From the IMG/VR virus record IMGVR_UViG_3300029267_002571, positions 1 to 40,514 of that record: a stretch of 40,514 bases of DNA; one strand, written 5' to 3'. The DNA comes from a virus. Positions 2,478-38,078 of this stretch are shown piece after piece (the first letter of the stretch is position 1; each line of letters opens with the position of its first letter). Below the pieces are notes generated by a model that was given only the letters and a program-made list of their open reading frames with translations, made no database searches and had not been told where the DNA came from. A program made the position numbers and the translations under genes.

Positions 2478-2734
2478 GAATCAAAGACACCCAACTCGCA
2501 GCCTGCTCAAGTTGCGGAGCCCCGATCCGGTGGATCCGCACCGAGGACGGTTTCCGAGCCCCGGTCAACATCGACCGCAAAGCGATCTACACCGACACCG
2601 GCACCGTCGACGCCGGCGACTTCGGCGCCACCCCGATCGGCCAGCTAGTCACCGGCTACGAATCCCACTTCGCTACCTGCCCCAACGCCGACCAGCACCG
2701 CAAAAAACAACCCGCCAAGAGGACCCGACGATGA
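2474..2734 (+). CDS. Zinc-ribbon hypothetical protein (86 aa)
   Basis: Starts with GTG at 2474, directly after AAGGAGG at 2461-2467, and overlaps the preceding stop by GTGA. The protein has CSSCGAPIRW near residues 11-20 and a second Cys/His pair near residue 70 (ATCPNADQH). It therefore looks like a small zinc ribbon with a basic tail (KKQPAKRTRR), suited to nucleic-acid binding. Partner unknown. The next gene, the methyltransferase, begins in its last codon. Confidence 0.78.
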   Translation: MRIKDTQLAACSSCGAPIRWIRTEDGFRAPVNIDRKAIYTDTGTVDAGDFGATPIGQLVTGYESHFATCPNADQHRKKQPAKRTRR

Positions 2735-3996
2735 ACAAGCTCCGCATCCGCCACGTTCACCCCAACGACCTGCAGCCGGCCCCCTACAACCCCCGCACCT
2801 GGACCGACGAGGAACTACACCGCCTCAAAACCGGGCTCCTCGAATTCGGGATCGTCCAACCCTCCATCATCAACACCCGCACCGGCTGGCTCGTCGGAGG
2901 CCATATGCGCCGCCAAGCCTGCCTCGAACTAGTAGACGAGGGACATACCCAATTCGCGTCCGTACCGATCGTTGAACAAGACCTCGACCCCGAACGGGAA
3001 CGAGCCCTCAACATCCTCCTCAATAACCCCAACGCCCAAGGGTCCTTCGGCGCCGACCTAACCGACGTCCTCGACGACCTCGCCGACACCCCCCTCCTCG
3101 AGCTCACCGGCTTCACCTTCAACGAGTACCAGCAACTCCAAGCCGAAACCGCCGACGACCTCAAAGCCGGCCGAGAAGGAACCACCCCCGCCCCACCGAA
3201 AAACCCGATAACCCAACCCGGCCAAACCTGGCGCCTCGGCCGGCACCTACTCCACATCGGAGACGCCACCCGACCCGCCTCCTACCAACACCTCCCCCAA
3301 CCCGCCGCCATGTGCTTCACCGACCCGCCCTACAACGTCGACTACACCGGCCGCACCAGAGAAGAACTCGAGATCATCAACGACGCCTGGAAAACCGAAG
3401 CCCAATACTCCGCATTCATCGAGGACGCCTGCACCCAGATCAAAACCAACACCACCGGCGCCATATACATGTGCTACGCCATCAGCCACGCCGCCGCCGT
3501 CCACGCTGCCTGGGAAAACACCCAACTCCACATCTCCACCACCATCGCCTGGGTCAAAGACCGGTGGGTCCTAAGCCGCTCCGACTACCACAACCAATGG
3601 GAGGGGATCCTCTACGGCTGGACCGAAGGACAACCCCACTACTTCGTCGACGACCGCACCCAAGGGAACGTCCTCGAATACGCCCGACCCCGCCGCGACG
3701 ACACCGGACCGAAACCCCGCCCCAAGCAGTCCGACGTCTGGCGCCACAACCGGCCAGCCGCCAGCCGGCTCCACCCGACAATGAAACCCGTCGCCCTAGT
3801 CGAGCACGCCATCCGCAACTCGAGCCACCGCAACGACTGGATCCTCGACCCGTTCGGCGGCAGCGGATCCACCCTCATCGCCGCAGAGAACATCGGCCGC
3901 AACGCCTACCTCATCGAACTCGACCCCGCCTACGCCGACGTCATCATCGCCCGCTACGCTTCAATCAGCGACACCGACCCAGAGGAGATCCCATGA
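2731..3996 (+). CDS. ParB-like nuclease/DNA methyltransferase fusion
   Basis: A 421-residue protein with two domains. Residues about 1-130 are a ParB/Srx-like domain: an N-P-R-x-W segment near 20-24, then VQPSIIN and the GGHMRR motif at 56-61, corresponding to the phosphate-binding GxxR region. Residues about 165-410 are a DNA methyltransferase with DPPY at 198-201 and the SAM-binding DPFGGSGS at 373-380, in the order typical of the beta class (N4-cytosine or N6-adenine). Such ParB-methylase fusions are frequent in phages and prophages and are thought to modify phage DNA against restriction. No cognate restriction enzyme is visible. The start overlaps the preceding stop by ATGA. The target sequence cannot be read from the protein. 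Confidence 0.93.
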   Translation: MNKLRIRHVHPNDLQPAPYNPRTWTDEELHRLKTGLLEFGIVQPSIINTRTGWLVGGHMRRQACLELVDEGHTQFASVPIVEQDLDPERERALNILLNNPNAQGSFGADLTDVLDDLADTPLLELTGFTFNEYQQLQAETADDLKAGREGTTPAPPKNPITQPGQTWRLGRHLLHIGDATRPASYQHLPQPAAMCFTDPPYNVDYTGRTREELEIINDAWKTEAQYSAFIEDACTQIKTNTTGAIYMCYAISHAAAVHAAWENTQLHISTTIAWVKDRWVLSRSDYHNQWEGILYGWTEGQPHYFVDDRTQGNVLEYARPRRDDTGPKPRPKQSDVWRHNRPAASRLHPTMKPVALVEHAIRNSSHRNDWILDPFGGSGSTLIAAENIGRNAYLIELDPAYADVIIARYASISDTDPEEIP

Positions 3997-12016: not shown

Positions 12017-14431
12017 GTGAAAACACCCCGACTGATCCGGATCCGGGAAGCCGAAGGTGACACCACCGAACCGGCCGAGGAAGCGATCAACGTCGACAGT
12101 CTCGACGGCCGCGCCCAACTCGTCCGCCAAGCCTGGAACGCCGGCCCCGGCTCGGCCGAGGACGCCGGCTGGGTCGACGAGGTCCACCAGGACTACCTGA
12201 TAATCAACCGCAACGGCCTCTGGCGCTACAGCTACGAGATAGACGACGACCAGAACATCACCTTCGGGCAGCCGGAGAAGGTGATCGCCGAGACCACCTA
12301 CCGCACCACCGAAGCCGAAACCGGCACCCCGGCCACCCCCGACCGCGGAACCGAAACCGGCACCGATCCCGAGCCGACTCTCTCTCGCGAGAGGGAATCG
12401 CTCCAAGGAACCATCCTCGAGTCACTCGACCAGGACGCCGGCTGGGTATGGCGAGTCACGATGATCCGCCCCGGCACCAGCAAAAACGGCCGCCGATACC
12501 GCCCCGAGGTTCTCCGAGAAGCCACCGAGCTTTACGAGGGAGCCCGAGCCTTCGACGGGCACCGCACCGCCGCCGAACGGAACCAGAGCGCCGTCGGGAA
12601 CCTATCCGGCTGGCACGAGAACGTCGAAGCGCAACCAGACGGAGCTCTCCAATCGGACTTCCACATCTCCGAATCCGCCCCCCAGATCCGCCAGCTATTC
12701 ATGTCGGCCGCACGCCACGACCGACCCGACCTCATCGGCTTCTCCCACGACGTTTCCGCCTACGCCAAACCGGCCGTCGAGGGAGGACGCAAAATCTCGG
12801 ACGTAACCAAAATCGCCGAGGTCCATTCAGTAGACATAGTCGCCGACCCTTCCGCCGGCGGTCGACTCGAGAGGCTCGTCGCGAGCCATCAGAGAGGAGA
12901 GTCAATGACTCTGCAGCAACTACTCGAGGCACTCGCCGCAGCCTCCACCGACGAGGAACGGAAGCAGATCCTCGCCGAGGCCCCAGCGGAGCTCCGAGAA
13001 GCCGTCGCGTCCATGACCGGAGCGACCATCACCGAAGCAACCGAAACCGACCCCGTCGAGGAGAAGGACCCGGAGCCGGTCACCGAAGCACTCAAGCCAG
13101 GGTCGCTGATCCACCGCCTCGCGGTGCGGGAAGCAGTCGATGAGACCAAGCTCCCCGACGACCTCAAGGAGAAGCTCCGCGAACGGTTCAAGGACGCCGA
13201 GATCACCGACGCCGAAATCCGGGAACGGGTCGCCGAGACCGCATCGATGTGGTCCGACGTTATCGGCGCCGCCGGCCAGCCGCTCCCCGGCCAGAAGCCC
13301 GCAGCGGAGGTCACCGAAGCCGAGACCGATAAGCACCGCAAAGCCCTCGACGGCCTGCTCGCCGGCGAGAAGGTCGACGACACGGCCCCGTTCCGGAGCC
13401 TCAAGGAAGCCTATGTGGCATTCACCGGCCGGAACCCCTACGCCACCGACACCCAGGACTTCGCCCGAGACATCCTCGCCGAATCCGTCGGAGCGTTCGC
13501 TACCGGAGGCCGCCGGCTCACCGAGTCGATCACATCGAGCACCTGGAGCTCCGCTCTCGGCGACTCGATCACCCGCCGCGCCATCGCCGAATACGCACTC
13601 CCGCAGCTACAAACGTGGCGCCAGATCGTCTCCGACATTGTTCCGGTCAACGACTTCCGCACCCAACGCCGGGACCGGATCGGTGGCTATGACACGCTCT
13701 CGGTCGTATCCGAGGGAGGCACCTATACCGCCCTCACCAGCCCGAGTGACGAGGAAGCCACCTATGCGCCGACCAAGAAGGGCGGCACCGAGGACCTCAC
13801 CCTCGAGACCATCGCCAACGACGACATCGGAGCGGTCCGCCGGATCCCGAAGAACCTGGGCCGAGCCGCAGCGCTCACCCTCTACCGGGCGATCTGGGTC
13901 GACATCCTGGTGACCAACCCGGCCACCAGCTACGACTCCGTCGCTCTATTCCACTCTTCCCATAGCAACACCACCGCCGTCGCCCTCGGCGAAACCGGCA
14001 TCGGTACGCTGCGGAACCTGATGGTCACTCAGGCTCGGAGCGGAGAGTCCAGCGGATTCGTTGGACTCACCCCCCGCTACCTGGCGGCACCGCCGGAGTT
14101 GTATGTCACCGCCTACAAGCTCACCTCGAGCGAATCGGCGGTCGTCGGCTCTACGGAGTCGGCCACCACACCGAACCCGTGGAGGGGGATCGTCCCGATC
14201 GAGGTCCCTGTCTGGACCGACGCCAACGACTGGATCCTGGTCGCCGACCCGGCTACCTGCCCCACCATCGAGGTCGGCTTCTACCAGGGACGCGAGGAAC
14301 CCGAGATCCTGGTCCAGGACCAGCCCGCCATCGGATCCGTGTTCACCGCCGACAAGATCACCTACAAGGTGCGACACATTTGGGGCCTGACGGTCCTCGA
14401 CCACCGCGGCTTCCAGCGCGGCACCCAGTAA
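12017..14431 (+). CDS. Prohead protease-scaffold-major capsid fusion
   Basis: One 804-residue ORF combining three functions. Residues about 135-296 resemble a phage prohead serine protease: SKNGRRYRPEVLREA, then FDGHRT (His182), LIGFSHDV (Ser243) and SVDIVADPSAGG (Asp273), plausible catalytic and signature positions. Residues about 297-440 are charged and helical, as in scaffold or delta domains. Residues about 441-804 are a major capsid protein close to the Mu gpT-like family, with NPATSYDSVALFHSSHSNTT and a conserved C-terminus. GTG at 12017 follows AGGAGA. A strong in-frame internal start lies at 12905. The protease would cut itself and the scaffold from the capsid. Residues 1-130 are variable and acidic. 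Confidence 0.88.
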   Translation: MKTPRLIRIREAEGDTTEPAEEAINVDSLDGRAQLVRQAWNAGPGSAEDAGWVDEVHQDYLIINRNGLWRYSYEIDDDQNITFGQPEKVIAETTYRTTEAETGTPATPDRGTETGTDPEPTLSRERESLQGTILESLDQDAGWVWRVTMIRPGTSKNGRRYRPEVLREATELYEGARAFDGHRTAAERNQSAVGNLSGWHENVEAQPDGALQSDFHISESAPQIRQLFMSAARHDRPDLIGFSHDVSAYAKPAVEGGRKISDVTKIAEVHSVDIVADPSAGGRLERLVASHQRGESMTLQQLLEALAAASTDEERKQILAEAPAELREAVASMTGATITEATETDPVEEKDPEPVTEALKPGSLIHRLAVREAVDETKLPDDLKEKLRERFKDAEITDAEIRERVAETASMWSDVIGAAGQPLPGQKPAAEVTEAETDKHRKALDGLLAGEKVDDTAPFRSLKEAYVAFTGRNPYATDTQDFARDILAESVGAFATGGRRLTESITSSTWSSALGDSITRRAIAEYALPQLQTWRQIVSDIVPVNDFRTQRRDRIGGYDTLSVVSEGGTYTALTSPSDEEATYAPTKKGGTEDLTLETIANDDIGAVRRIPKNLGRAAALTLYRAIWVDILVTNPATSYDSVALFHSSHSNTTAVALGETGIGTLRNLMVTQARSGESSGFVGLTPRYLAAPPELYVTAYKLTSSESAVVGSTESATTPNPWRGIVPIEVPVWTDANDWILVADPATCPTIEVGFYQGREEPEILVQDQPAIGSVFTADKITYKVRHIWGLTVLDHRGFQRGTQ
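12891..12907 (+). promoter_or_regulatory. Internal ribosome binding site and start in the capsid fusion
   Basis: AGAGAGGAGA (12891-12900), as strong as any binding site in this genome, lies four bases before an in-frame ATG at 12905 (Met297, MTLQQLLEAL). It falls exactly where the protease-like domain ends and the scaffold-like helical region begins. Use of this start would give a 508-residue scaffold-capsid protein lacking the protease. Confidence 0.7.
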
Positions 14432-15820: not shown

Positions 15821-16543
15821 ATGCGCAACCAAGGAACCGCCCCGGCAATCGGAGACCTCGGTCTTCGAGTCATCCGAGGAGGAGCAACCCCTGCCCCGGC
15901 CGGCCGGCCAGGGAAAGAACTCTCGTTCCGAGAGATCGTCCACTACAGCAACCCGAGCAACACCGACCCCGCTGAGGTCGCCGCCTGGAAGCGGGAGAAC
16001 CTGCGCCGCATCATCGGCCCAGCGGTCCGCCGCTTCGGTCCCGCTCGAGCGATCGCTCGCCGCCTCGGCCTGCCCTACATGTGGTCCCAGCTATGGCTCC
16101 GGGTCATACGGGCAGACGGTACCGAGCTCGACTACGGGCTCGCCGGTCTCCGAGTAGTCACCAACGCCGGAGTCGCCGCCATCGTCGACGCGTTCCAAGA
16201 CTCCGTTGAGCTCGAGACGTTCAAATATCACGGAGTCGGCACCGGCAGCACCGCCGAAGCCGCCGCCGATACCGACCTCGTAACCGAGTTGACAACCGAA
16301 TACACCACCAACTCGACTCGTGCAACCGGCACCACAGCCGAAGGAGCCTCAGCGAACATCTACCAGACGGTCGCCACCAACTCGTTCGACGCCTCGGTCG
16401 CACTCGAGGAGCACGGCATCTTCACCAGCGCAACGGTCGGATCCGGGACGCTGCTGGACCGCACCGTGTTCTCGGTGATCAACCTGGGCAGCGGAGACTC
16501 GCTCGAGTCGACCTACGAGCTCACGTTCTCCGCCGGCAGCTAA
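15821..16543 (+). CDS. Phage structural protein, minor capsid/fibre-like (240 aa)
   Basis: The frame is open well upstream of 15821, but the start is placed there after AAGGAG at about 15808-15813. Residues 1-105 are basic and helical. Residues about 105-240 form a beta domain with a pattern seen in many phage structural proteins: GVGTGSTAEAAADTDL, then ALEEHGIF, LLDRTVFSVINLGSGDS and a final YELTFSAG strand. The exact location in the virion is not known. It opens the surface-protein cassette that continues to 20837. Confidence 0.7.
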   Translation: MRNQGTAPAIGDLGLRVIRGGATPAPAGRPGKELSFREIVHYSNPSNTDPAEVAAWKRENLRRIIGPAVRRFGPARAIARRLGLPYMWSQLWLRVIRADGTELDYGLAGLRVVTNAGVAAIVDAFQDSVELETFKYHGVGTGSTAEAAADTDLVTELTTEYTTNSTRATGTTAEGASANIYQTVATNSFDASVALEEHGIFTSATVGSGTLLDRTVFSVINLGSGDSLESTYELTFSAGS

Positions 16544-16574
16544 CCCGATAACCGACCGCCGAGGGGAGACCCGC

Positions 16575-18065
16575 ATGGGACGATTCACCGACACCGCCGG
16601 CCACTGGGCCGAGGACCAAATCGATTGGGCAGCCGACGAGGACTGGTTCGAAGGATTCGACGACGGATCCTTCCGGCCAGATGAGCCGTTCACCAGAGCC
16701 CAAGCCGCCACCGTCGCCTGGCGTAAATTCAGGGAACCCGAACCGCCGCCGCCGGCCCCCGATACGGTGCCCCCGGTAGTCACCCTCCTCGGGGAACCGG
16801 AGATCACCATCATCCAACACTCCCCCTGGGTCGACCCCGGAGCGACCGCCTGGGACAACGTCGACGGAGAGCTCCCCGTCGCCACGGAGGGAACCGTCGA
16901 CACTTCCACCCCCGGTGAATACACCATCCGCTACACCGCCGTCGACGCCGCCGGGAACCGGCATGTCATCACCCGCACGGTCAAGGTCCAGAAGCTCGAG
17001 GTCCCCCCGCAAACCGACTTCGACGTCACTATCGGCCCCGGCGACAACATCGCCGACCTAATCACCGAAGCCGGAGCGGAGGGTCGCATCGGCTGGCGCG
17101 GAGGGATCTACAACGGATTCTCCCACCAGCCGCTCCCCGGCCAGCTATGGGCAGCCTGCCCAGGAGAGGGACCGGTATTCGACGGAGCCAACACCTACAC
17201 CCACGCCATCGAGGGACACGGCATCCCCGCCGTCACTATCCAGGGACCCTTCGAGATCCGCAACTACGGCCGGCTCGAATACCACGGAGCCATCTGCTCC
17301 CTCGCCCCCGGCGACTGGTACAACCATCCGATCCGAGGCATCGAAGGATGGAAAATCGCCGGAGCCGAGATCCACCACTGCTCCTACGGAGCGACCCTCG
17401 CCGGCGACAACGTCGAGCTCACCGACTTCGTCCTTCGAGACCTCGACGACCTCGGCTTCAAAATCCTATTCGGCGCCGACGGCTACGTCGCCCGAGGAGA
17501 GATGTACAACATCAAAGCCGAAAGTTGGGGTCATGAGGGAGGAGGCTCGAAATCCTGGGAGACCAATGGACTCGTCCACGAGGACATTCACCTCCAGGAC
17601 ATCGACGGCCCCGGCCTCTGGACCGACAGCAACAACGACAACACCGTCTATAGGCGCATCACCGCCGAACGGGTCACCAATGCAGCGATCTTCCACGAGA
17701 TCTCCCAGAGCGCCCTCATCGAGGATTGCACCCTCACCGGCGGCACCGGAGGAGGCTCCAACGGGATCTGGACCCGAGCCGACGTCGGAATCCAGATCGC
17801 CAACGCCGGCTATGTGACCATCCGCCGGAACCGGCTCACCGGCTTCTACGCCGGGATCTCCTGCATCGATCAGATACGCGATGACCAGTACGGCAACGAC
17901 CTCACCGACACTACGGGGGGAGAGGTCCACGACAACACCATCGACGGTTGCCGATACAACGGAGACGCCCGAGACCATACGGTCGGTGGCCCGAAGTACA
18001 CCCTCGGGGGACTACCGGTTCACTGGCACGACAACGAGCTCCTCAACGGATCACTGATCAACTAG
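16575..18065 (+). CDS. SLH/Ig-like/beta-helix spike protein (496 aa)
   Basis: Three domains are visible. Residues about 3-50 are an S-layer homology domain: HWAEDQIDWAADEDWFEGF, then DGSFRPDEPFTRAQAATVAW. Residues about 62-145 are an Ig-like domain of the DUF5011 type, with PPVVTLLGEP, WVDPGATAWDNVDG and YTIRYTAVDAAGN. Residues about 150-496 are a right-handed beta-helix, with repeated strand-turn units such as VTIQGPFEIRNYG and VTIRRNRLTGFYAG, as in tailspikes and pectate-lyase-like enzymes. SLH domains bind pyruvylated cell-wall polymers, so this is a probable host-binding spike, perhaps a depolymerase; no catalytic residues can be assigned. It lies among head/neck genes rather than after the tail tip. 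Ribosome binding site GAGGGGAG upstream. Confidence 0.85.
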   Translation: MGRFTDTAGHWAEDQIDWAADEDWFEGFDDGSFRPDEPFTRAQAATVAWRKFREPEPPPPAPDTVPPVVTLLGEPEITIIQHSPWVDPGATAWDNVDGELPVATEGTVDTSTPGEYTIRYTAVDAAGNRHVITRTVKVQKLEVPPQTDFDVTIGPGDNIADLITEAGAEGRIGWRGGIYNGFSHQPLPGQLWAACPGEGPVFDGANTYTHAIEGHGIPAVTIQGPFEIRNYGRLEYHGAICSLAPGDWYNHPIRGIEGWKIAGAEIHHCSYGATLAGDNVELTDFVLRDLDDLGFKILFGADGYVARGEMYNIKAESWGHEGGGSKSWETNGLVHEDIHLQDIDGPGLWTDSNNDNTVYRRITAERVTNAAIFHEISQSALIEDCTLTGGTGGGSNGIWTRADVGIQIANAGYVTIRRNRLTGFYAGISCIDQIRDDQYGNDLTDTTGGEVHDNTIDGCRYNGDARDHTVGGPKYTLGGLPVHWHDNELLNGSLIN

Positions 18066-18078
18066 AGAGGAGCCCCCG

Positions 18079-20487
18079 GTGGCGACGGCCCCATCCTATG
18101 TCGCTAAGAGCTCCGCCCAGGGATCCGGTTCCGTCACCCCAGCGATGCCGACCGGAGCAACCAGCGGAGACTTCCTAATCCTCTCCATTGTCGGGAAGGG
18201 AGACAACGCCAACGCCGACGCCGCCCCGGAGGGATGGAATTACCTGAACACCGTCGCCGGCTCCGTCGGCCCCGCCGGCACCGCCGTCCGTCTAACCAAC
18301 TACTGGGCTTGGTACCGATCCGATATCAGCCGCGCCGTTCCCGACGCCGGCAGTTTCACCATCGCCGGGATAACCGCGTGGCGTAACGTAAACCGCCTCA
18401 ACCCGTTCGACGTCACCCCAGTGACCTCCTCCGAGGGATACGGCAGCCGCAACACCTCGGTCAGTATCACCGGAGTCACCACCACCACCGCCAACACCAG
18501 GATCGTCGCCATCTCCGCATCCGGAGACAACAACTCGTTCGGATCCTGGGCCAACGCCAACCTCGAATCCATCTCCGAGATCCTCGAGCAGCGAACCACC
18601 GCCGGCGACGATGGGACCCTCGCTATCGCCCACGGGGAAAAAGCCACCGCCGGCGCCACCGGGACAACCACCGCCACCATCAACGCCGCCGAGGAGGAAG
18701 CCAACTGCTGCATCGCTCTCCGCTCAAATGACCACGGCCCGATCGTCCAGTTCAAGCGAACCTCCGTAGGGCAATCGGACAGCACCATATCGGTCACCCT
18801 CGACGACACCCCAACCGAGGACAACCTCCTCGTCGCCATCTACGCCGGCGGAGGCCTCTTCTCCGGCTGGGCATCCTGCACCGGCTTCACCGACGTAGAT
18901 CACGCCTGGGATGGCACCGCCTGGTTTGGGCACACCGTATTCACCAAAAAGGCCGGAGCCTCCGAATCGGCTACCGTCACCGTCACCCCCGCCGACACCG
19001 ACTCCGGCTGGCTCCTCGTCCTCGAGATCGACGCCGACTATCTCCCCTCCGGCTTCACCGCCAGCAACGTCTACGACCAAGGGAACGAGAACACCGGCAG
19101 CAGCGGCACCTCCCTCACCGGAGCGTCGATCACCACCACCGACGCCAACACCCTATCCATCGTCGGCGCCTGCTACTGGCAATCATCCACGACCGACACC
19201 ATCGACGACTTCGATTGCGACACCGGCTGGGAGAAGGTCCTCCAGGAGGGGAACGCCGGCGGAGGCGGAGACAACGAGTTCCAGGGAGCCTGCTTCCTCC
19301 GCGCCCTAGAGAGCACCGGCACTTACAACCCGACCGTCTCCTGGGACGACTCGTCCTCCGGGTCGATGATCTTCCAAGTCACTCTCGAGATGGCCGCGGC
19401 AGCGACCGTCGAAACCGTCTCCCCGACCGGAGCCGCTACCCCGACCGGAGCGCTCGAGCTCGAACCGCAGCACACCCTCACCGGATCTGCGACCCCAACC
19501 GGAGCCGCCACCAAGGAACCCACCCAGAGCCTCACCGGAGCAGCAACACCGACCGGATCGACGAGCAAAGCCCCACGGCACTCTCCCGCTGGAACCGCCC
19601 CCGTCGCCGGCCAAGTAGGGAAAACCGCTGCCCACGTTCCCACCGGCAGCATCTCCACCGCCGGGACCATCACCAAAGCCATATCCCGAGCCCTCACCGG
19701 CGCCGCCGCCACGGCAGGGAACCTGACCCGAGCAGTCACCGCGACCTACACCGGCACCCTCCCCGGAGCCGGCACGCTCGATACCCTCCGACTGAAGCTC
19801 CTCGCCGTCGCCGGCACCATCACTGCCACCGGGTCGATCACCCGAGCCGCCGCGCGAGCCCTCACCGGATCGACTGCCCCGACCGGAGCGACCACCAGCG
19901 GAGCAGCCACCAAAGCCACCGGGACCGCTACCCCAACCGGCGCCGTCACTAAATCCGTCACCCAAACCATCACCGGAGCCATCGCCTCCGCAGCTTCGCT
20001 CGCCACCCAAGCTATCTCTGGGACAATCCGCCGCACCTTCACCGGCGCCGCCACCCTCGCCGGCGACCTCGCCACCCACATCGCTACCAGCCTCGCCGGC
20101 AGCATCGACACCGAGGGAGACATCAACCGGACCGCCACCACTAGCGCCTACACCGGCGCCTCCACCCCAACCGGCGTGACCACCAAAACACCGAAGGTCA
20201 CCCCGGCCGGTAGCATCGCCTCGAGCAGCACCATCATCCGCACCGCCCGTACCGCCCTCGCCGGGATCGCCGCCCCCGCCGGCTCTATCTACCGCACCGT
20301 CCGCACCGCCCTCGCCGGTACCGCCGGCTCCGCTTCGACCCTCGTCCAAGGGATCCCCGGAGAGCTCATCTCTGTAACCCGAAGGATCCGATCCACCCGG
20401 AGATCCACCACAACGCGCCGGAACCAAGCCACTACCATCCGCAGAGACACCACTACCACCATCCGACGGAAGGACTTCGACACATGA
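18079..20487 (+). CDS. Repeat-rich structural protein (802 aa)
   Basis: Starts with GTG at 18079 after GAGAGGAG. Residues about 1-220 and 225-440 are two related beta-sandwich-like domains rich in Thr/Ser/Gly, both containing a DNLL/DFLI-type strand and ending in long Thr runs. Residues about 447-762 are a tandem array of roughly seventeen 18-residue units of the form LTGxxxPTGxxxK. The last 30 residues are very basic (Arg/Thr). Such proteins occur in phage structural clusters and probably form a fibre or surface adhesin. The role and location are inferred from composition and neighbours only. Confidence 0.72.
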   Translation: MATAPSYVAKSSAQGSGSVTPAMPTGATSGDFLILSIVGKGDNANADAAPEGWNYLNTVAGSVGPAGTAVRLTNYWAWYRSDISRAVPDAGSFTIAGITAWRNVNRLNPFDVTPVTSSEGYGSRNTSVSITGVTTTTANTRIVAISASGDNNSFGSWANANLESISEILEQRTTAGDDGTLAIAHGEKATAGATGTTTATINAAEEEANCCIALRSNDHGPIVQFKRTSVGQSDSTISVTLDDTPTEDNLLVAIYAGGGLFSGWASCTGFTDVDHAWDGTAWFGHTVFTKKAGASESATVTVTPADTDSGWLLVLEIDADYLPSGFTASNVYDQGNENTGSSGTSLTGASITTTDANTLSIVGACYWQSSTTDTIDDFDCDTGWEKVLQEGNAGGGGDNEFQGACFLRALESTGTYNPTVSWDDSSSGSMIFQVTLEMAAAATVETVSPTGAATPTGALELEPQHTLTGSATPTGAATKEPTQSLTGAATPTGSTSKAPRHSPAGTAPVAGQVGKTAAHVPTGSISTAGTITKAISRALTGAAATAGNLTRAVTATYTGTLPGAGTLDTLRLKLLAVAGTITATGSITRAAARALTGSTAPTGATTSGAATKATGTATPTGAVTKSVTQTITGAIASAASLATQAISGTIRRTFTGAATLAGDLATHIATSLAGSIDTEGDINRTATTSAYTGASTPTGVTTKTPKVTPAGSIASSSTIIRTARTALAGIAAPAGSIYRTVRTALAGTAGSASTLVQGIPGELISVTRRIRSTRRSTTTRRNQATTIRRDTTTTIRRKDFDT
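19417..20364 (+). repeat. Tandem 54-bp coding repeats (18-residue units)
   Basis: About seventeen consecutive units with consensus LTGxxxPTGxxxKxxxxx; most are exactly 18 residues, a few 19-23. Copies are diverged at DNA level. A fixed 18-residue period suggests a beta-solenoid or extended fibre shaft. Confidence 0.8.
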
Positions 20488-20837
20488 TCATCACCAACAT
20501 CGGTGAGCTCGGCGCCGTCGGAGGGATCCTCCGCCCCTTCCAATTCACCATCGAGAGAGACGGCTCCGCCTGGGACCTCACCGCCTACAGCAGCGTCGAC
20601 TGGCGAGTCTGGGACCTCCGCACCAAAACCCTCCTCGCCCTCACCGGAGCGCTCACCGTCGAGACCGCAGCGAGCGGGATCGTCAAGTACACCCCCGGCA
20701 CCGACGACCCGATCCACGACGCCTCCGGCACCTATGAAGCCAGAGTCTGGTGTACCCCCACCAGCGGAGGGGACCCGGAACCGTCCGCCCTCCACCGGTT
20801 CACGATCGGAGCGGGACCAACCCCCGCAGCATCATGA
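20484..20837 (+). CDS. BppU-like N-terminal domain protein (117 aa)
   Basis: Segments FQFTIERDGSAWDLTAYSSV, a central LTGALTVE strand, then GIVKYTPGTDDP, GTYEARVW and a final HRFTIGAG strand follow the beta-sandwich pattern of phage baseplate upper protein N-terminal domains, which attach fibres to the virion. It overlaps the repeat protein's stop by ATGA, supporting a joint role in a surface structure. Only this one domain is present. Confidence 0.72.
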   Translation: MIITNIGELGAVGGILRPFQFTIERDGSAWDLTAYSSVDWRVWDLRTKTLLALTGALTVETAASGIVKYTPGTDDPIHDASGTYEARVWCTPTSGGDPEPSALHRFTIGAGPTPAAS

Positions 20838-26950: not shown

Positions 26951-29900
26951 ATGACAGCCCCCGCCGGCAATTGGTGGGCCGAAGCCTGGGACCTCCCCGG
27001 CATAGGCACAACCAAGCGAGTCGCCCGTATCCCCGTCATCGACGGGTCGATCTCTAAGCAACTATCCGGAGTCGGTACCGGCCAGATCCGGATCCCCGCC
27101 GCTACAGACGGAGCCGACAACCGGCTCGCTGACATCCTCGACCCGGACACCAACACCAACCGGCTCATCAAAATCATCGACCGCGGGCAGGAAGTCCAAG
27201 CGTTCTTCCCCGAGGACGGAGACGACCCCTACGACGACGACGCCGCATCTCTAGTCAAAATCACCGGCCCCGGCATCGAGAACGTACTCTCCTGGGCAGC
27301 GATCCTCCCCTACGACAAATCCGGCACCGGGACCGGCACCAGCCACTTCCCCGACTGGATCTGGGCCGGCCAGGAGATGCTCGAGAACGGAGACTTCGAA
27401 GCCGGCCGAGAGATCATCGACGACGACCCGGACTCCGGCACCTTCGGAGAAGGCACCGGCGTGTTCAACCCGACCGCCTGGGAGCTGTCCCCCTACGGAG
27501 CCCAAGCATCCACCTCGTTCGTTCTCGAAACCAGCGTCAAGCGCAACGGCACCTATAGCCTCAAAATCAACCCGCTCGACGCCGCCGGCGACCCGAGCGG
27601 GAAGTGGGCCGGAGTACAGCAGATTGTGAAGGTCAACCCCGGCGGCATATACCAAGCCACCCTCTGGGCCTACACCAGCGACGCGACCGCCCGCAACTGG
27701 CGTCTCGTATGCCGAGACATCGACGGCAACAAAATCCCCTGCGACGAGGCAAGCGACCACCACACCCAAACCATCCCGCAGAACACCTGGACCGAGTACA
27801 ACCTCACCAACCTCGAGGTCCCCGACAACGTCGACACCGTCATATTCCGATTCGCGTTCGTCGACGCCACCGGGAACCCCGGCCCCGTCTACATCGACGA
27901 CTGCTCACTCCGAGAGGGAGCCCCCGCCACCAACGCCGGCGACATCGTCCTGCAACTACTCGACCCGATCCAAACCCGAGGCACCCTCACCTTCCTCGGA
28001 ACCACATTCACCGACACCCTCGACTCCGCCGGGAACGCTTGGGACACCGACGATCTATCCGTCGCCATCGCCTACGGAGGAGACCTCCTCGGAGCGCTCA
28101 ACACCCTCGCCACCCTCGGCTACGAATGGACCGTCACCCCCGACGGCTCCAACGGCTACGACCTCAACCTATACAACCCCGGCGGAGCCGGCACCGACCA
28201 CACCTCCTCCCAATGGCCCGCGTTCAAGGGAGGATTCGCTGCGCTCCCCTCCACCGTCCGGAAATCCATCCCCCCGAAAAACTACGTCTTCGCGGTCGGC
28301 GACGGGGGAGTCTGGGCCGAGGACTCCGACGCCACCGACATCACCAACTACGAACGGCGTGAGAAGGTCATCAAGGACCAGACGGTCTCCGACACCGGCA
28401 CCGCAGCACTCATAGCCGAAGCCGACCTCAACGTCCAAGACACCGCCCGATTCGGAATCAAAATCTCGGTCCTCGACACCGACCGGATCCACCCGCTCCA
28501 CTCGAGCGGAGACGGAGCAGTCCACCTCGGCGACACCGTCCCCGTCGACTACCCCGGCAAGATGACCGAAGCCGCCTACCGGGTCGTCCGATGGGTAGCC
28601 AAGTTCCCCGACGACGGGATCCCCCAATGGACCGGAGACGTCAACCGGGTCGTCCTCGACGACGCCGACGCCGCCGCCGCGATCATCAAAAGGCTCGTCC
28701 GAGGCCAAACCGCTCGAGGAGGAGGCACCGCAGCCAAAGCCGCCCCCGGAATCACCCCCGGCGGACTCGCCCCGATCCGGACCAACCCGCCGCTTGACGT
28801 CACCCCACCGAGCCAACCCAAAGCCCCGACCCTGACTGCGCTCCTCGGAGCGATCCGAGTCACCCACGCCCTCGGTATCGACGGAGGCTCCGACTACACC
28901 CTCGAGTCCGACACGATCGCTCTTCGCGTATACGCCTCCACCACCACCGGATTCACGCCGGCCACCACCGACCTAGTCGGAGTCATCCCCGTCGGGATAG
29001 CAGCATTCTCCGCCCAAGTACCGGTCTCCACCGTGTTCGCCGTCGCCTCCGGAGACCTCGGTCCCTGGTACGTCAAGGTCACCGCCGTCGACTGGTCCGG
29101 GAACGAGAGTGCAGCGAGCAGCCAAGCCGCCGTCACCGCCCAGCAGGTCGGCGCCGTCGACGCCACCGACCTCGCCAACGACATCATCGAGGAAGCCCAC
29201 TACACCGCCGACTCTGTATCCATCCGAGCCCTTGCCGTAGCGTCCTTCGAGAACATGCTCGCCAACGGAGGTTTCGAAGCCGGCACCGTCGACGGAGACG
29301 ACGACCCGAACAAATACATCACCTCGAGCGGCACCTTCGCCAACACCACCGCCCGCTCCGGTACCCGCGGCTGCCGATACGACCACACCGCTCAAGTCGG
29401 AGAATCCCGGATCGAGTTCAACGGAGACCGAGCCACCCCGAGCCGGCATCAGGAAGCCTCCCTCGGAGACAAGATCGTTGCCTGGGGATATATGCGATAC
29501 CTGGTCTCCGCCCCGACCGCCGGCAGCTACCTCCAGTTCCGGATCCAAGGATTCGACGCCGCCGGCGCTGCCACTACCGACTCCGGCGTTACCGACGTCC
29601 GGACCACCCTCACTACCTCATGGCAAAAAATCGAAGCCGAGCTCACCATCGCCGACGCCGACACCGCCTATGTCGTCCTCGAGGTCCGCATCGACGATCT
29701 CCACACCGTAGGGATGGTCCTCACCTTCGACGGCTGCTACATGCGACGAGCCAACGAAGGGCTCCTCATCGTCGACGGAGCCATCATCGCCGACCACATC
29801 GCCACCAACGCCATCTCCGCGACGGCCGGCCATATCCTCGACCTCGACGCCGACGACATCACCGCCGGCACCATCACCGGCCGAACCGTCAGAGGCGCCT

Positions 29901-31054
29901 CATCCGGCACCCGATGGGAGCTCACCAGCGGAGTCGTCGACGAGAGTCTGTCTTGGTACGAGGGAGCCACCAAGGTCGGCCATCTCGGGATCTATACCAG
30001 CCTCAACCGGCTACAACTCGGAACATCCAACTCCTCCTATTTTCTCCGCCTTTCGGCCTCGAACGGAGGAGCCGGGTATCTGCTCCTAACCGGGAACCCC
30101 TCCAGCGCCACTTCCCCTGGTGTAGAGATCGCCCGCGACGCTAACGGCAGGGTCCTCTTCGTCCACGCCGGGAACGATCCCTACACCAACACCATCGCCA
30201 TCATCGCCACCGACGAGAACGCCACCTCCGGATTCGACTTCCTCAAAACCGCTCGCGACTGGGATGGCACCCTTGACATCGAGCACGCCCTCCGAGCGAA
30301 CGGGGACCTCGACATCGACGGCTCCACCGGCAGCCCCGCCACCGACTACGCCGAACTCTTCGAGAACGCCACCCCCGGCACGATCCCTCCGGGCACCCCG
30401 GTCACTCTCGACGGAGACAAGGTCCGCCCAGCCGCAGCCGGCGACTGGCTACTCGGAATCGTCTCCGCCATACCCTCCGTCATCGGTAACGCCCCTATCG
30501 ACTGGCCAGGGAGATATCAGAGGACCAAGTGGGGAGACTACGCCCTCGACGCCGACGGGCACCGGATCGAAACAGGAGACTTCGACCCCGAGCTCGGCCT
30601 CGAGTGGGATTGGCACCCGACCAAGTACACCGACGACGAGATCGCCAAAGCCACCATCGACTGCGACACCTGCGCCACTACCGGCACCGTCACCAGGGTC
30701 CTCGAGAAGCGCGCAGCGACCCGCCGACCGGCCCCGCCGCTCGAGATCGAGGAGGCCTGCCCCGACTGCGAGGGAACCGGCCGAACGGTCGACAAGGACC
30801 TACTCCACAAAATCCGGCCACCCGAGATCTGGAGACCAGTCGATATCAGCTACAGCCGCCGCCAGGACCGCCCCGACGAGTGGACCGTCGTCGGGCTCCT
30901 CGGTCAGCTACCAGCCGTCGACGACGGCACCTGCCAACCCGGCCGACACGCCACCATCACCAGCGACGGCCGGCTCGGCCACTCCGACAACCCAACCGAC
31001 TGGCGCGTCCTAACCCGAATCGACGCCGACACCATCAAGGTCCTAGTCCGATGA
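26951..31054 (+). CDS. Tail tip/fibre protein with Peptidase_G2 domain (1367 aa)
   Basis: Residues about 1-600 resemble tail-tip (Tal/gp27-like) proteins that bind the distal tail ring, and include a carbohydrate-binding-like jelly roll at about 140-325 (ENGDFEAGREI... YIDDCSLREG). Residues about 620-730 are fibronectin-like. A second similar jelly roll is at about 760-935 (NMLANGGFEAG, then LTFDGCYMRR). A fibre-shaft region follows. Residues about 1125-1367 are a Peptidase_G2 intramolecular chaperone: DYAELFENA, VTLDGDKVRPAAAGDWLLGI, and a final VLTRIDADTIKVLV. Such domains trimerise the fibre and then cut themselves off. Inserted in it is a zinc finger with CDTC (1238-1241) and CPDCEGTG (1270-1277), the latter like the DnaJ CxxCxGxG motif. 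AAGGAG precedes the start. Confidence 0.85.
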   Translation: MTAPAGNWWAEAWDLPGIGTTKRVARIPVIDGSISKQLSGVGTGQIRIPAATDGADNRLADILDPDTNTNRLIKIIDRGQEVQAFFPEDGDDPYDDDAASLVKITGPGIENVLSWAAILPYDKSGTGTGTSHFPDWIWAGQEMLENGDFEAGREIIDDDPDSGTFGEGTGVFNPTAWELSPYGAQASTSFVLETSVKRNGTYSLKINPLDAAGDPSGKWAGVQQIVKVNPGGIYQATLWAYTSDATARNWRLVCRDIDGNKIPCDEASDHHTQTIPQNTWTEYNLTNLEVPDNVDTVIFRFAFVDATGNPGPVYIDDCSLREGAPATNAGDIVLQLLDPIQTRGTLTFLGTTFTDTLDSAGNAWDTDDLSVAIAYGGDLLGALNTLATLGYEWTVTPDGSNGYDLNLYNPGGAGTDHTSSQWPAFKGGFAALPSTVRKSIPPKNYVFAVGDGGVWAEDSDATDITNYERREKVIKDQTVSDTGTAALIAEADLNVQDTARFGIKISVLDTDRIHPLHSSGDGAVHLGDTVPVDYPGKMTEAAYRVVRWVAKFPDDGIPQWTGDVNRVVLDDADAAAAIIKRLVRGQTARGGGTAAKAAPGITPGGLAPIRTNPPLDVTPPSQPKAPTLTALLGAIRVTHALGIDGGSDYTLESDTIALRVYASTTTGFTPATTDLVGVIPVGIAAFSAQVPVSTVFAVASGDLGPWYVKVTAVDWSGNESAASSQAAVTAQQVGAVDATDLANDIIEEAHYTADSVSIRALAVASFENMLANGGFEAGTVDGDDDPNKYITSSGTFANTTARSGTRGCRYDHTAQVGESRIEFNGDRATPSRHQEASLGDKIVAWGYMRYLVSAPTAGSYLQFRIQGFDAAGAATTDSGVTDVRTTLTTSWQKIEAELTIADADTAYVVLEVRIDDLHTVGMVLTFDGCYMRRANEGLLIVDGAIIADHIATNAISATAGHILDLDADDITAGTITGRTVRGASSGTRWELTSGVVDESLSWYEGATKVGHLGIYTSLNRLQLGTSNSSYFLRLSASNGGAGYLLLTGNPSSATSPGVEIARDANGRVLFVHAGNDPYTNTIAIIATDENATSGFDFLKTARDWDGTLDIEHALRANGDLDIDGSTGSPATDYAELFENATPGTIPPGTPVTLDGDKVRPAAAGDWLLGIVSAIPSVIGNAPIDWPGRYQRTKWGDYALDADGHRIETGDFDPELGLEWDWHPTKYTDDEIAKATIDCDTCATTGTVTRVLEKRAATRRPAPPLEIEEACPDCEGTGRTVDKDLLHKIRPPEIWRPVDISYSRRQDRPDEWTVVGLLGQLPAVDDGTCQPGRHATITSDGRLGHSDNPTDWRVLTRIDADTIKVLVR

Positions 31055-37411: not shown

Positions 37412-37762
37412 ATGGCGCACCACACCGGCAACCCTGGCATCGCCAGAATGGTCGACGGCCCCCACGCCGGCGACGAGTGGCGCTTCGATACCGAGATGCC
37501 CCACGAGATCCACTACCCCGCCGGGAGCAACGGCTACGCCGTCATCGCCTACCACCGGGAACCCGACACCAACGTCGACGGCCGGATCCGCTACCGACTC
37601 ACCACCGGCACCGACGCCGGCGCCTACCTATACGCCCTCATCCCCGGAGAGGAGACCACCAACAATGCCGAGACCACGGAACTACGCCTACCCGACTGGA
37701 GACGAGAACGTCGAGAGGATCCGGAATCACCTGATCAACAACGGAGCATGCTCCCCCGATAA
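37412..37762 (+). CDS. Hypothetical GGPxDGE-like protein (116 aa)
   Basis: VDGPHAGDEWRF and GRIRYRL resemble the LLEGGPHDGE and GRIRY motifs of 1032-1409, so a similar small beta domain is likely. GAGAGAGG precedes the start. The last 98 bases overlap the WhiB-like gene in a different frame; the C-terminal 33 residues (WRRERREDPESPDQ) look like read-through sequence rather than domain. Function unknown. Confidence 0.62.
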   Translation: MAHHTGNPGIARMVDGPHAGDEWRFDTEMPHEIHYPAGSNGYAVIAYHREPDTNVDGRIRYRLTTGTDAGAYLYALIPGEETTNNAETTELRLPDWRRERREDPESPDQQRSMLPR

Positions 37763-38078
37763 CGCCGAAGCCGCCCTCGCTCGAGCCGGCCTCAACTACG
37801 TCGACCCGGCCGACGTCCCCGACATAATGCTGGACCCCACCGGAGGCAACGTCGTCATCGCCCGCCGCCTATGCGCAGTATGCCCACTCGTGAACTACTG
37901 CCTCGAGTACGCCGTCTCCTACCCCGCCGTCGCTACCGACGGGATTTGGGGATCGCTGGACCCGCACGAACGGTCCAAGCTTCGCCGCCGCCGCCGGGAC
38001 CAAGCCCGCCGCGGAACCACACCCAGAGGAGCCTACAAAACACGGAACGTCTCATCCGGCGCATCCGCTATGGTGTAG
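37665..38078 (+). CDS. WhiB-like iron-sulfur transcription factor (137 aa)
   Basis: RRLCAVCPLVNYCLEYAV (residues about 67-84) gives the Cys-x2-Cys-x5-Cys core (70, 73, 79); the first cluster cysteine is probably Cys29. DGIWGSLDPHER (92-103) is the conserved G[I/V]WG turn, followed by the basic KLRRRRRDQARR (105-116) that binds DNA. Wbl proteins hold a 4Fe-4S cluster, work with the principal sigma factor, and occur only in Actinobacteria and their phages. Phage versions can silence host wbl genes. The spacing from Cys29 to Cys70 is long. Ribosome binding site GGAGAGGAG at about 37646-37654. The TATGGTGTAG at its end resembles part of the promoter repeat. Confidence 0.88.
   Translation: MPRPRNYAYPTGDENVERIRNHLINNGACSPDNAEAALARAGLNYVDPADVPDIMLDPTGGNVVIARRLCAVCPLVNYCLEYAVSYPAVATDGIWGSLDPHERSKLRRRRRDQARRGTTPRGAYKTRNVSSGASAMV

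Follow-up and report, generated by a model that had tools for sequence, protein, structure and literature searches.

What would a tailed phage gain from placing an S-layer homology (SLH) domain, the anchoring module of bacterial surface proteins, on a beta-helix protein encoded among its structural genes? The question is raised by one gene (the 16575 gene, named after its first position) of the virus record IMGVR_UViG_3300029267_002571. The window referred to below is the whole stretch of DNA that was analysed, 40,514 nucleotides. This IMG/VR virus has genes for terminase, portal, Phage_capsid_4 capsid, tail tape measure, tail, NlpC/P60 and holin-like proteins, some of them recognised by sequence reading, and the features discussed here are collected in Table 1.

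An SLH domain, an Ig-like domain and a beta-helix in one leaderless protein

The combination of these three domains in one protein, described in an earlier note on this DNA, is confirmed: all three exceed the Pfam curated cut-offs and are far above chance. The SLH domain scored 43.2 bits against a cut-off of 20.8, and Beta_helix, recognised by sequence profile only, scored 35.6 bits against 25.9. The protein has a single SLH copy, which is also the only one found when the whole record was scanned. Wall-anchored bacterial proteins usually have three, often in tandem, although this is not universal. No signal peptide was found: within residues 1-60 the highest mean hydrophobicity over 12 residues is 0.19. 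The reading frame before the ATG is open but contains no start codon. Given that there is neither a hydrophobic leader nor an upstream in-frame start, the protein is not one destined for Sec export. Pfam revealed no peptidoglycan-cutting (lytic) domain, and no particle-attachment domain was recognised with Pfam, PHROGs or NCBIfam; the one PHROGs match, phrog_1696, spans the SLH alone. A single-sequence structure prediction of the whole length reached a mean pLDDT of 34 and left the beta-helix part unmodelled, and it was not used.

Table 1. Positions of the features discussed in the text; numbers refer to the window unless a contig is named.
Feature	Position	Strand	Remarks
Protease + major capsid fusion (Phage_capsid_4)	12017..14431	+	PF25209, E 5.1e-44; query for finding relatives
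Upstream neighbour, edge of variable slot	15821..16543	+	ATG at 15821 after AAGGAGA; family with at least 214 IMG/VR relatives
Ribosome-binding site GAGGGGAGA	16561..16569	+	5 bases 5' of the 16575 ATG; read from sequence; rated good
Gene for SLH / Ig-like / beta-helix protein	16575..18065	+	ORF, ATG start, 496 aa, without signal peptide
SLH domain, residues 3-45	16581..16709	+	Pfam PF00395, E 3.8e-11
Ligand residues of SLH	W11 16605-16607; G27 16653-16655; R41 16695-16697	+	Alignment to SpaA positions (PMC6081394)
Ig-like domain (Bact_surface_Ig-like, PF16403), residues 70-138	16782..16988	+	Pfam, E 5.9e-19
Beta-helix region, residues 147-496; Pfam core 257-394	17013..18062	+	PF13229 Beta_helix, E 8.7e-9
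Downstream neighbour, 802 aa, fibre-like	18079..20487	+	C-terminal half of short G-containing repeats; similar protein in L082 and L094
117 aa structural-type gene, downstream edge of slot	20484..20837	+	Homologue directly behind the homologue of the 15082 gene in L081
1367 aa tail protein	26951..31054	+	CBM_4_9 + Peptidase_G2 chaperone domain
WhiB-like protein	37659..38078	+	PF02467, E 5.7e-8
SLH-protease	L009:2533-3285	-	
SLH-protease	L072:2324-3049	-	
SLH-protease	L366:5469-6179	-	
SLH-protease	L380:1936-2739	-	
SLH-protease	L381:4-726	-	
SLH-protease	L397:58-783	-	
SLH-protease	L399:7694-8434	+	
SLH-protease	L400:6324-7130	-	

Predicted fold and ligand residues of the SLH domain

Residues 1-57 were modelled with AlphaFold from a 58-row alignment (this SLH and 57 other SLH segments, mostly viral), giving a confident model with a mean pLDDT of 89 that consists of two helices (residues 13-21 and 41-52) and a loop. 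The only matches found for this model in the PDB by Foldseek were the SLH domains of Sap (3pyw) and SpaA (6cwc); the 3pyw match had a probability of 0.96 and a TM score of 0.70, the E-values being poor as the domain has just 57 residues. The predicted fold is that of an SLH domain.

In SpaA of Paenibacillus alvei, the sugar is contacted by SLH-Trp13, Gly29 and Arg43, each from a different SLH unit, and one groove combines the Arg of one SLH with the Gly of the next unit and the Trp of the third (PMC6081394). The 16575 protein keeps all three positions, as W11, G27 and R41, at a constant offset of 2. It also has the TRAQ motif of SpaA SLH3, whose Arg touches the pyruvate (PMC6081394). The GIIxG motif reads DWFEG, in which the key second Gly is kept and the first is replaced by Asp23; this does not exclude SLH membership, given that SpaA has its own variants of the motif, one of them without the second Gly (PMC6081394). 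The Trp was conserved in at least 90% of the 58 aligned segments, although the search pattern had left it free. With the ligand residues preserved, binding of the 16575 protein to the host wall is plausible from its sequence. Sap of Bacillus and SpaA have the same SLH fold and the same three residues for the ligand, but they have three tandem SLH units per chain and are exported to the cell surface.

Because each SpaA groove draws on three SLH units, one SLH per chain would be expected to work solely as an oligomer. By analogy, the single SLH implies a homotrimer, which would also fit a beta-helix spike. Beta-helix spikes are usually trimers. P22-type trimeric tailspikes resemble the 16575 protein in the beta-helix body expected for it, but their N-terminal particle-binding domain is not an SLH, and the 16575 trimer is a predicted one. 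There are precedents for a single SLH in a trimer: SlpA of Deinococcus is a trimeric protein with one SLH, for which an SLH trimer has been predicted (PMC9388160), and LysBT1, the endolysin of Brevibacillus thermoruber prophage PBT1 characterised in 2025, has one SLH and forms trimers by cross-linking (PMC12285257). The LysBT1 SLH fused to GFP attaches to cells, and in its TRAE motif mutation of the Arg abolishes cell binding and mutation of the Glu does not (PMC12285257); the TRAQ of the 16575 protein should therefore be tolerated.

A variable slot between head and tail genes

The 16575 gene sits in a structural run on the + strand, between head-completion and tail genes, separated by 31 bases from the gene upstream and by 13 bases from the gene downstream. 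These structural genes on the same strand bear out the phage setting of the "phage spike" in the earlier note; the "spike" itself is a reading of fold and gene position. Comparison with other phages indicates that the position is variable. In one capsid relative (L081) the slot is absent, and the 15082 homologue has the 20484 homologue as its immediate neighbour; in another (L082) the upstream gene is followed by a 163 aa protein and then by the fibre. Elsewhere, zero to three varied genes, often including a repeat fibre, lie behind the 15821-type gene, and the cargo includes domain matches to Laminin_G_3 (lectin-like), Kelch, another Beta_helix and Collar. Judged by its gene content, the variable slot shows the pattern of an adhesin cassette. 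SLH was absent from the capsid relatives and from 80 slot relatives, and the cassette thus does not always include it.

Two further features of the slot were observed. The fibre-like proteins at window 18079-20487, L082:13652-15646 and L094:16227-19604 have a long C-terminal array of TPTGA..T-type repeats; the one in the window matched no family in Pfam, PHROGs or NCBIfam, and proteins like it adjoin the 15821-type gene in many phages. Clear signal-peptide-like leaders were seen on slot products at L241:6718-7188, L245:6191-6673, L283:9557-11812 and L293:8662-10137, these being phage structural cassettes that carry exported proteins. The L283 product is a beta-helix protein with thrombospondin-type repeats; an OmpA-like wall anchor considered for it was rejected, the match falling on one of these repeats.

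Further downstream, the tail protein of 1367 aa, in which CBM_4_9 and Peptidase_G2 domains are recognised, is the likelier main receptor-binding protein, and in its presence the 16575 protein is probably an accessory grip.

We give about an even chance to the 16575 gene encoding a trimeric spike or fibre with which a tailed phage binds the wall in an accessory role. From the domains, the kept ligand residues, the missing leader and the position in the slot we infer the trimer, its location on the virion, its ligand and its role in adsorption. Three chains would assemble, the C-terminal beta-helices forming a stalk or a sugar-binding body and the Ig-like domain a spacer. The three N-terminal SLH units would meet as a three-pronged SLH spindle, in which different chains would contribute Trp11, Gly27 and Arg41 to each of the three grooves, so as to hold a wall glycopolymer by its acidic (pyruvylated) terminal sugar. 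The particle, or the protein if it is released, would thereby have another hold on the host wall, in addition to that of the main tail receptor-binding protein. The strongest doubt on the spike reading is that the SLH occupies the N-terminus, the end through which phage spikes are normally fixed to the particle.

SLH domains in other phage proteins

No relatives were found in IMG/VR for the whole 16575 protein, for its SLH alone or for its beta-helix alone. Among named phages the whole protein matched just separate Ig-like or SLH pieces, and the beta-helix had no relative. A degenerate SLH pattern matched 78 IMG/VR stretches, and many of the 61 viral SLH proteins scanned (the 16575 protein excluded) have Amidase_2, CHAP, Amidase_3, Peptidase_C1, VanY or GH25 domains and are lysins or related enzymes. 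In those lysins the SLH is mostly C-terminal. Where a partner domain could be recognised, the viral SLH proteins were mostly lysis enzymes, though some IMG/VR contigs may contain host DNA and not all of these proteins are necessarily viral. Named phages with an SLH protein are Moorella phage MTATph1 (endolysin), Paenibacillus phage Pd_22F (amidase), Brevibacillus phage Jenst (gp155) and S-PM2 ("putative S-layer protein").

Some of these domains lie in tail modules. Two SLH-only ORFs of 61-62 aa (L006:2524-2706 and L053:7780-7965) directly follow a Prophage_tail (Tal-like) gene, and in L053 the next gene encodes a receptor-binding tail protein; these ORFs are possibly a free-standing SLH tail component. 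Jenst gp155 (YP_009199097.1) is likewise in a tail gene cluster, directly behind the tape measure gene, but is a 206 aa protein with its SLH near the C-terminus (residues 144-187) and without a beta-helix. We know of no experiment on it. An SLH together with a beta-helix was not found in any other viral SLH protein scanned, which for the set of 61 applies to the 25 commonest of 46 families. The surprise expressed in the earlier note at finding an SLH on a phage protein is consequently weakened, the domain being widespread in lysins and recurring in tail modules. In the open-licence literature, SLH on phage proteins has been known since at least 2010, and its combination with a beta-helix looks new.

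When N-terminal SLH domains without a leader were sought, the matches were mainly fusions to a trypsin-like protease, a leaderless family of 237-269 aa that recurs in viral contigs (Table 1). The triad motifs CRHV, DLAV and GNSGG are readable in the L009 member, whose gene follows a holin-like ORF. Such proteases could be targeted to the wall and cut S-layer proteins at lysis or entry. To our knowledge this family has not been described. Another leaderless viral-contig protein (L403:3864-4421, - strand, 186 aa) has hardly anything besides its three SLH domains.

Alternative roles for the 16575 protein

Perhaps the protein is soluble, expressed late and targeted to the wall, its SLH holding a polysaccharide-binding or polysaccharide-degrading beta-helix there during lysis, as SLH endolysins hold amidases. 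The frequency of lysis enzymes (Amidase_2, CHAP, Amidase_3, VanY and others) among viral SLH proteins would agree with this, as would the trypsin-like proteases that carry most leaderless N-terminal SLH domains in phages, one of them (L009) beside a holin-like gene, and the fact that no virion-attachment domain was recognised. However, the lysis region, with the NlpC/P60 and holin-like genes, is at 31.2-32.6 kb, whereas this gene has head genes on one side and tail genes on the other, at 16.6 kb, and the slot is elsewhere filled by adhesin-like genes; we regard this role as doubtful, although it is the main alternative to the spike. LysBT1 is a close comparison, since it is also a phage protein with one SLH per chain and has the conserved Trp, a GIIxG-type loop and the TRA motif (PMC12285257). 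It differs in having a C-terminal SLH on an amidase, in being a lysis enzyme and in the experimental demonstration of its trimer and cell binding, whereas the 16575 protein is a beta-helix protein known from its sequence.

It is improbable that the gene is a moron, i.e. a captured gene for a bacterial cell-surface protein that alters the host surface. Its architecture is found in surface enzymes of bacteria: ChiW of Paenibacillus sp. FPU-7, for example, combines SLH, a right-handed beta-helix (CBM-54) binding wall polysaccharide, and Ig-like domains (PMC5132251). ChiW is however a chitinase of the bacterial surface that has GH18 domains besides its SLH region, and not a phage protein. Some other slot proteins have signal peptides (L241, L245, L283 and L293), that of L283 being a beta-helix protein, and cyanophage S-PM2 has an early-expressed SLH protein that was proposed to protect the infected cell (PMC2984593). 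On the other hand, bacterial surface proteins anchored by SLH have a signal peptide and usually three SLH units, and the 16575 protein has neither; it also lacks an in-frame upstream start, and its gene is embedded in a same-strand structural run.

SLH units trimerise unaided (PMC12285257; PMC9388160) and the N-terminus is the attachment end of spikes, so the domain might be a mere trimerisation clamp or virion-attachment element in which binding of wall sugar has been lost. All three ligand residues are kept, which would be needless in a mere clamp and makes this quite improbable.

Spikes are few per virion and S-layer anchors very many per cell, so that the displacement of S-layer proteins from the wall, put forward in the earlier note, is unsupported and highly improbable, the more so as an S-layer on the host is itself putative. 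Competition for one ligand is conceivable, and the LysBT1 SLH bound better with EDTA, an agent that releases S-layer proteins (PMC12285257).

Host lineage and wall pyruvylation

The WhiB profile matched only in Corynebacterium among 14 control genomes, and the best named relatives of the capsid are in Nonomuraea, Crossiella, Lentzea, Sphaerisporangium and an Acidimicrobiales MAG. WhiB and these relatives suggest that the host is probably an actinobacterium (Actinomycetota). No SLH proteins were found in these five named prophage hosts, and the true host is therefore probably of another lineage.

We surveyed 297 genomes of the phylum of the Acidimicrobiales MAG, which should be Actinomycetota; 141 of them have WhiB and 67 have SLH. 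A match to PS_pyruv_trans (PF04230, a pyruvyl transferase family wider than CsaB) was present in 31 of the 32 SLH-rich genomes, i.e. those with six or more SLH matches, one of these 31 being below the family cut-off, compared with 66 of the 265 others (Fisher p 5e-16, uncorrected for shared ancestry). All twelve SLH-rich genomes that have WhiB carry the match. Suitable hosts, with SLH proteins and a pyruvyl transferase, thus exist in the surveyed phylum. The proposal in the earlier note to look for csaB-like genes in candidate hosts holds at the level of the phylum, and the phage's own host was not tied to any genome: a related capsid gene was absent from the twelve SLH-rich WhiB-positive genomes, and oligonucleotide composition did not discriminate between SLH-rich and SLH-free actinobacteria as host.

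Wall pyruvylation is already linked to a phage protein, the receptor-binding protein of prophage lambdaBa03, whose binding requires the wall pyruvylation gene csaB (PMC10644760). It differs from the 16575 protein in that its binding domain was not reported as SLH (PMC10644760). Tentatively, we propose that phages took up the bacterial SLH anchor several times as a virion-borne wall adhesin, in the present case in its most economical form, with each chain of a trimeric spike bearing one SLH, three identical composite grooves formed by symmetry and a receptor specificity tied to csaB-type pyruvylation. If this is true, the pyruvylated polymer of the wall would serve directly as a phage receptor, read by the host's own anchoring domain, and both the receptor and a resistance gene of the csaB type would be predictable from sequence. 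It would also supply a module, ready to use, for binding actinobacterial walls, and a route to finding virion-borne SLH proteins in other phages.

Two observations on other genes of the record are added here. Terminase comparison gave two distant host candidates, at about 46% identity, which were rejected as neither genome has a related capsid; no other shared gene was found near the better match. At window 2512-3996, a ParB-like N-terminal domain (below the Pfam cut-off) is fused to an N6/N4 DNA methylase.
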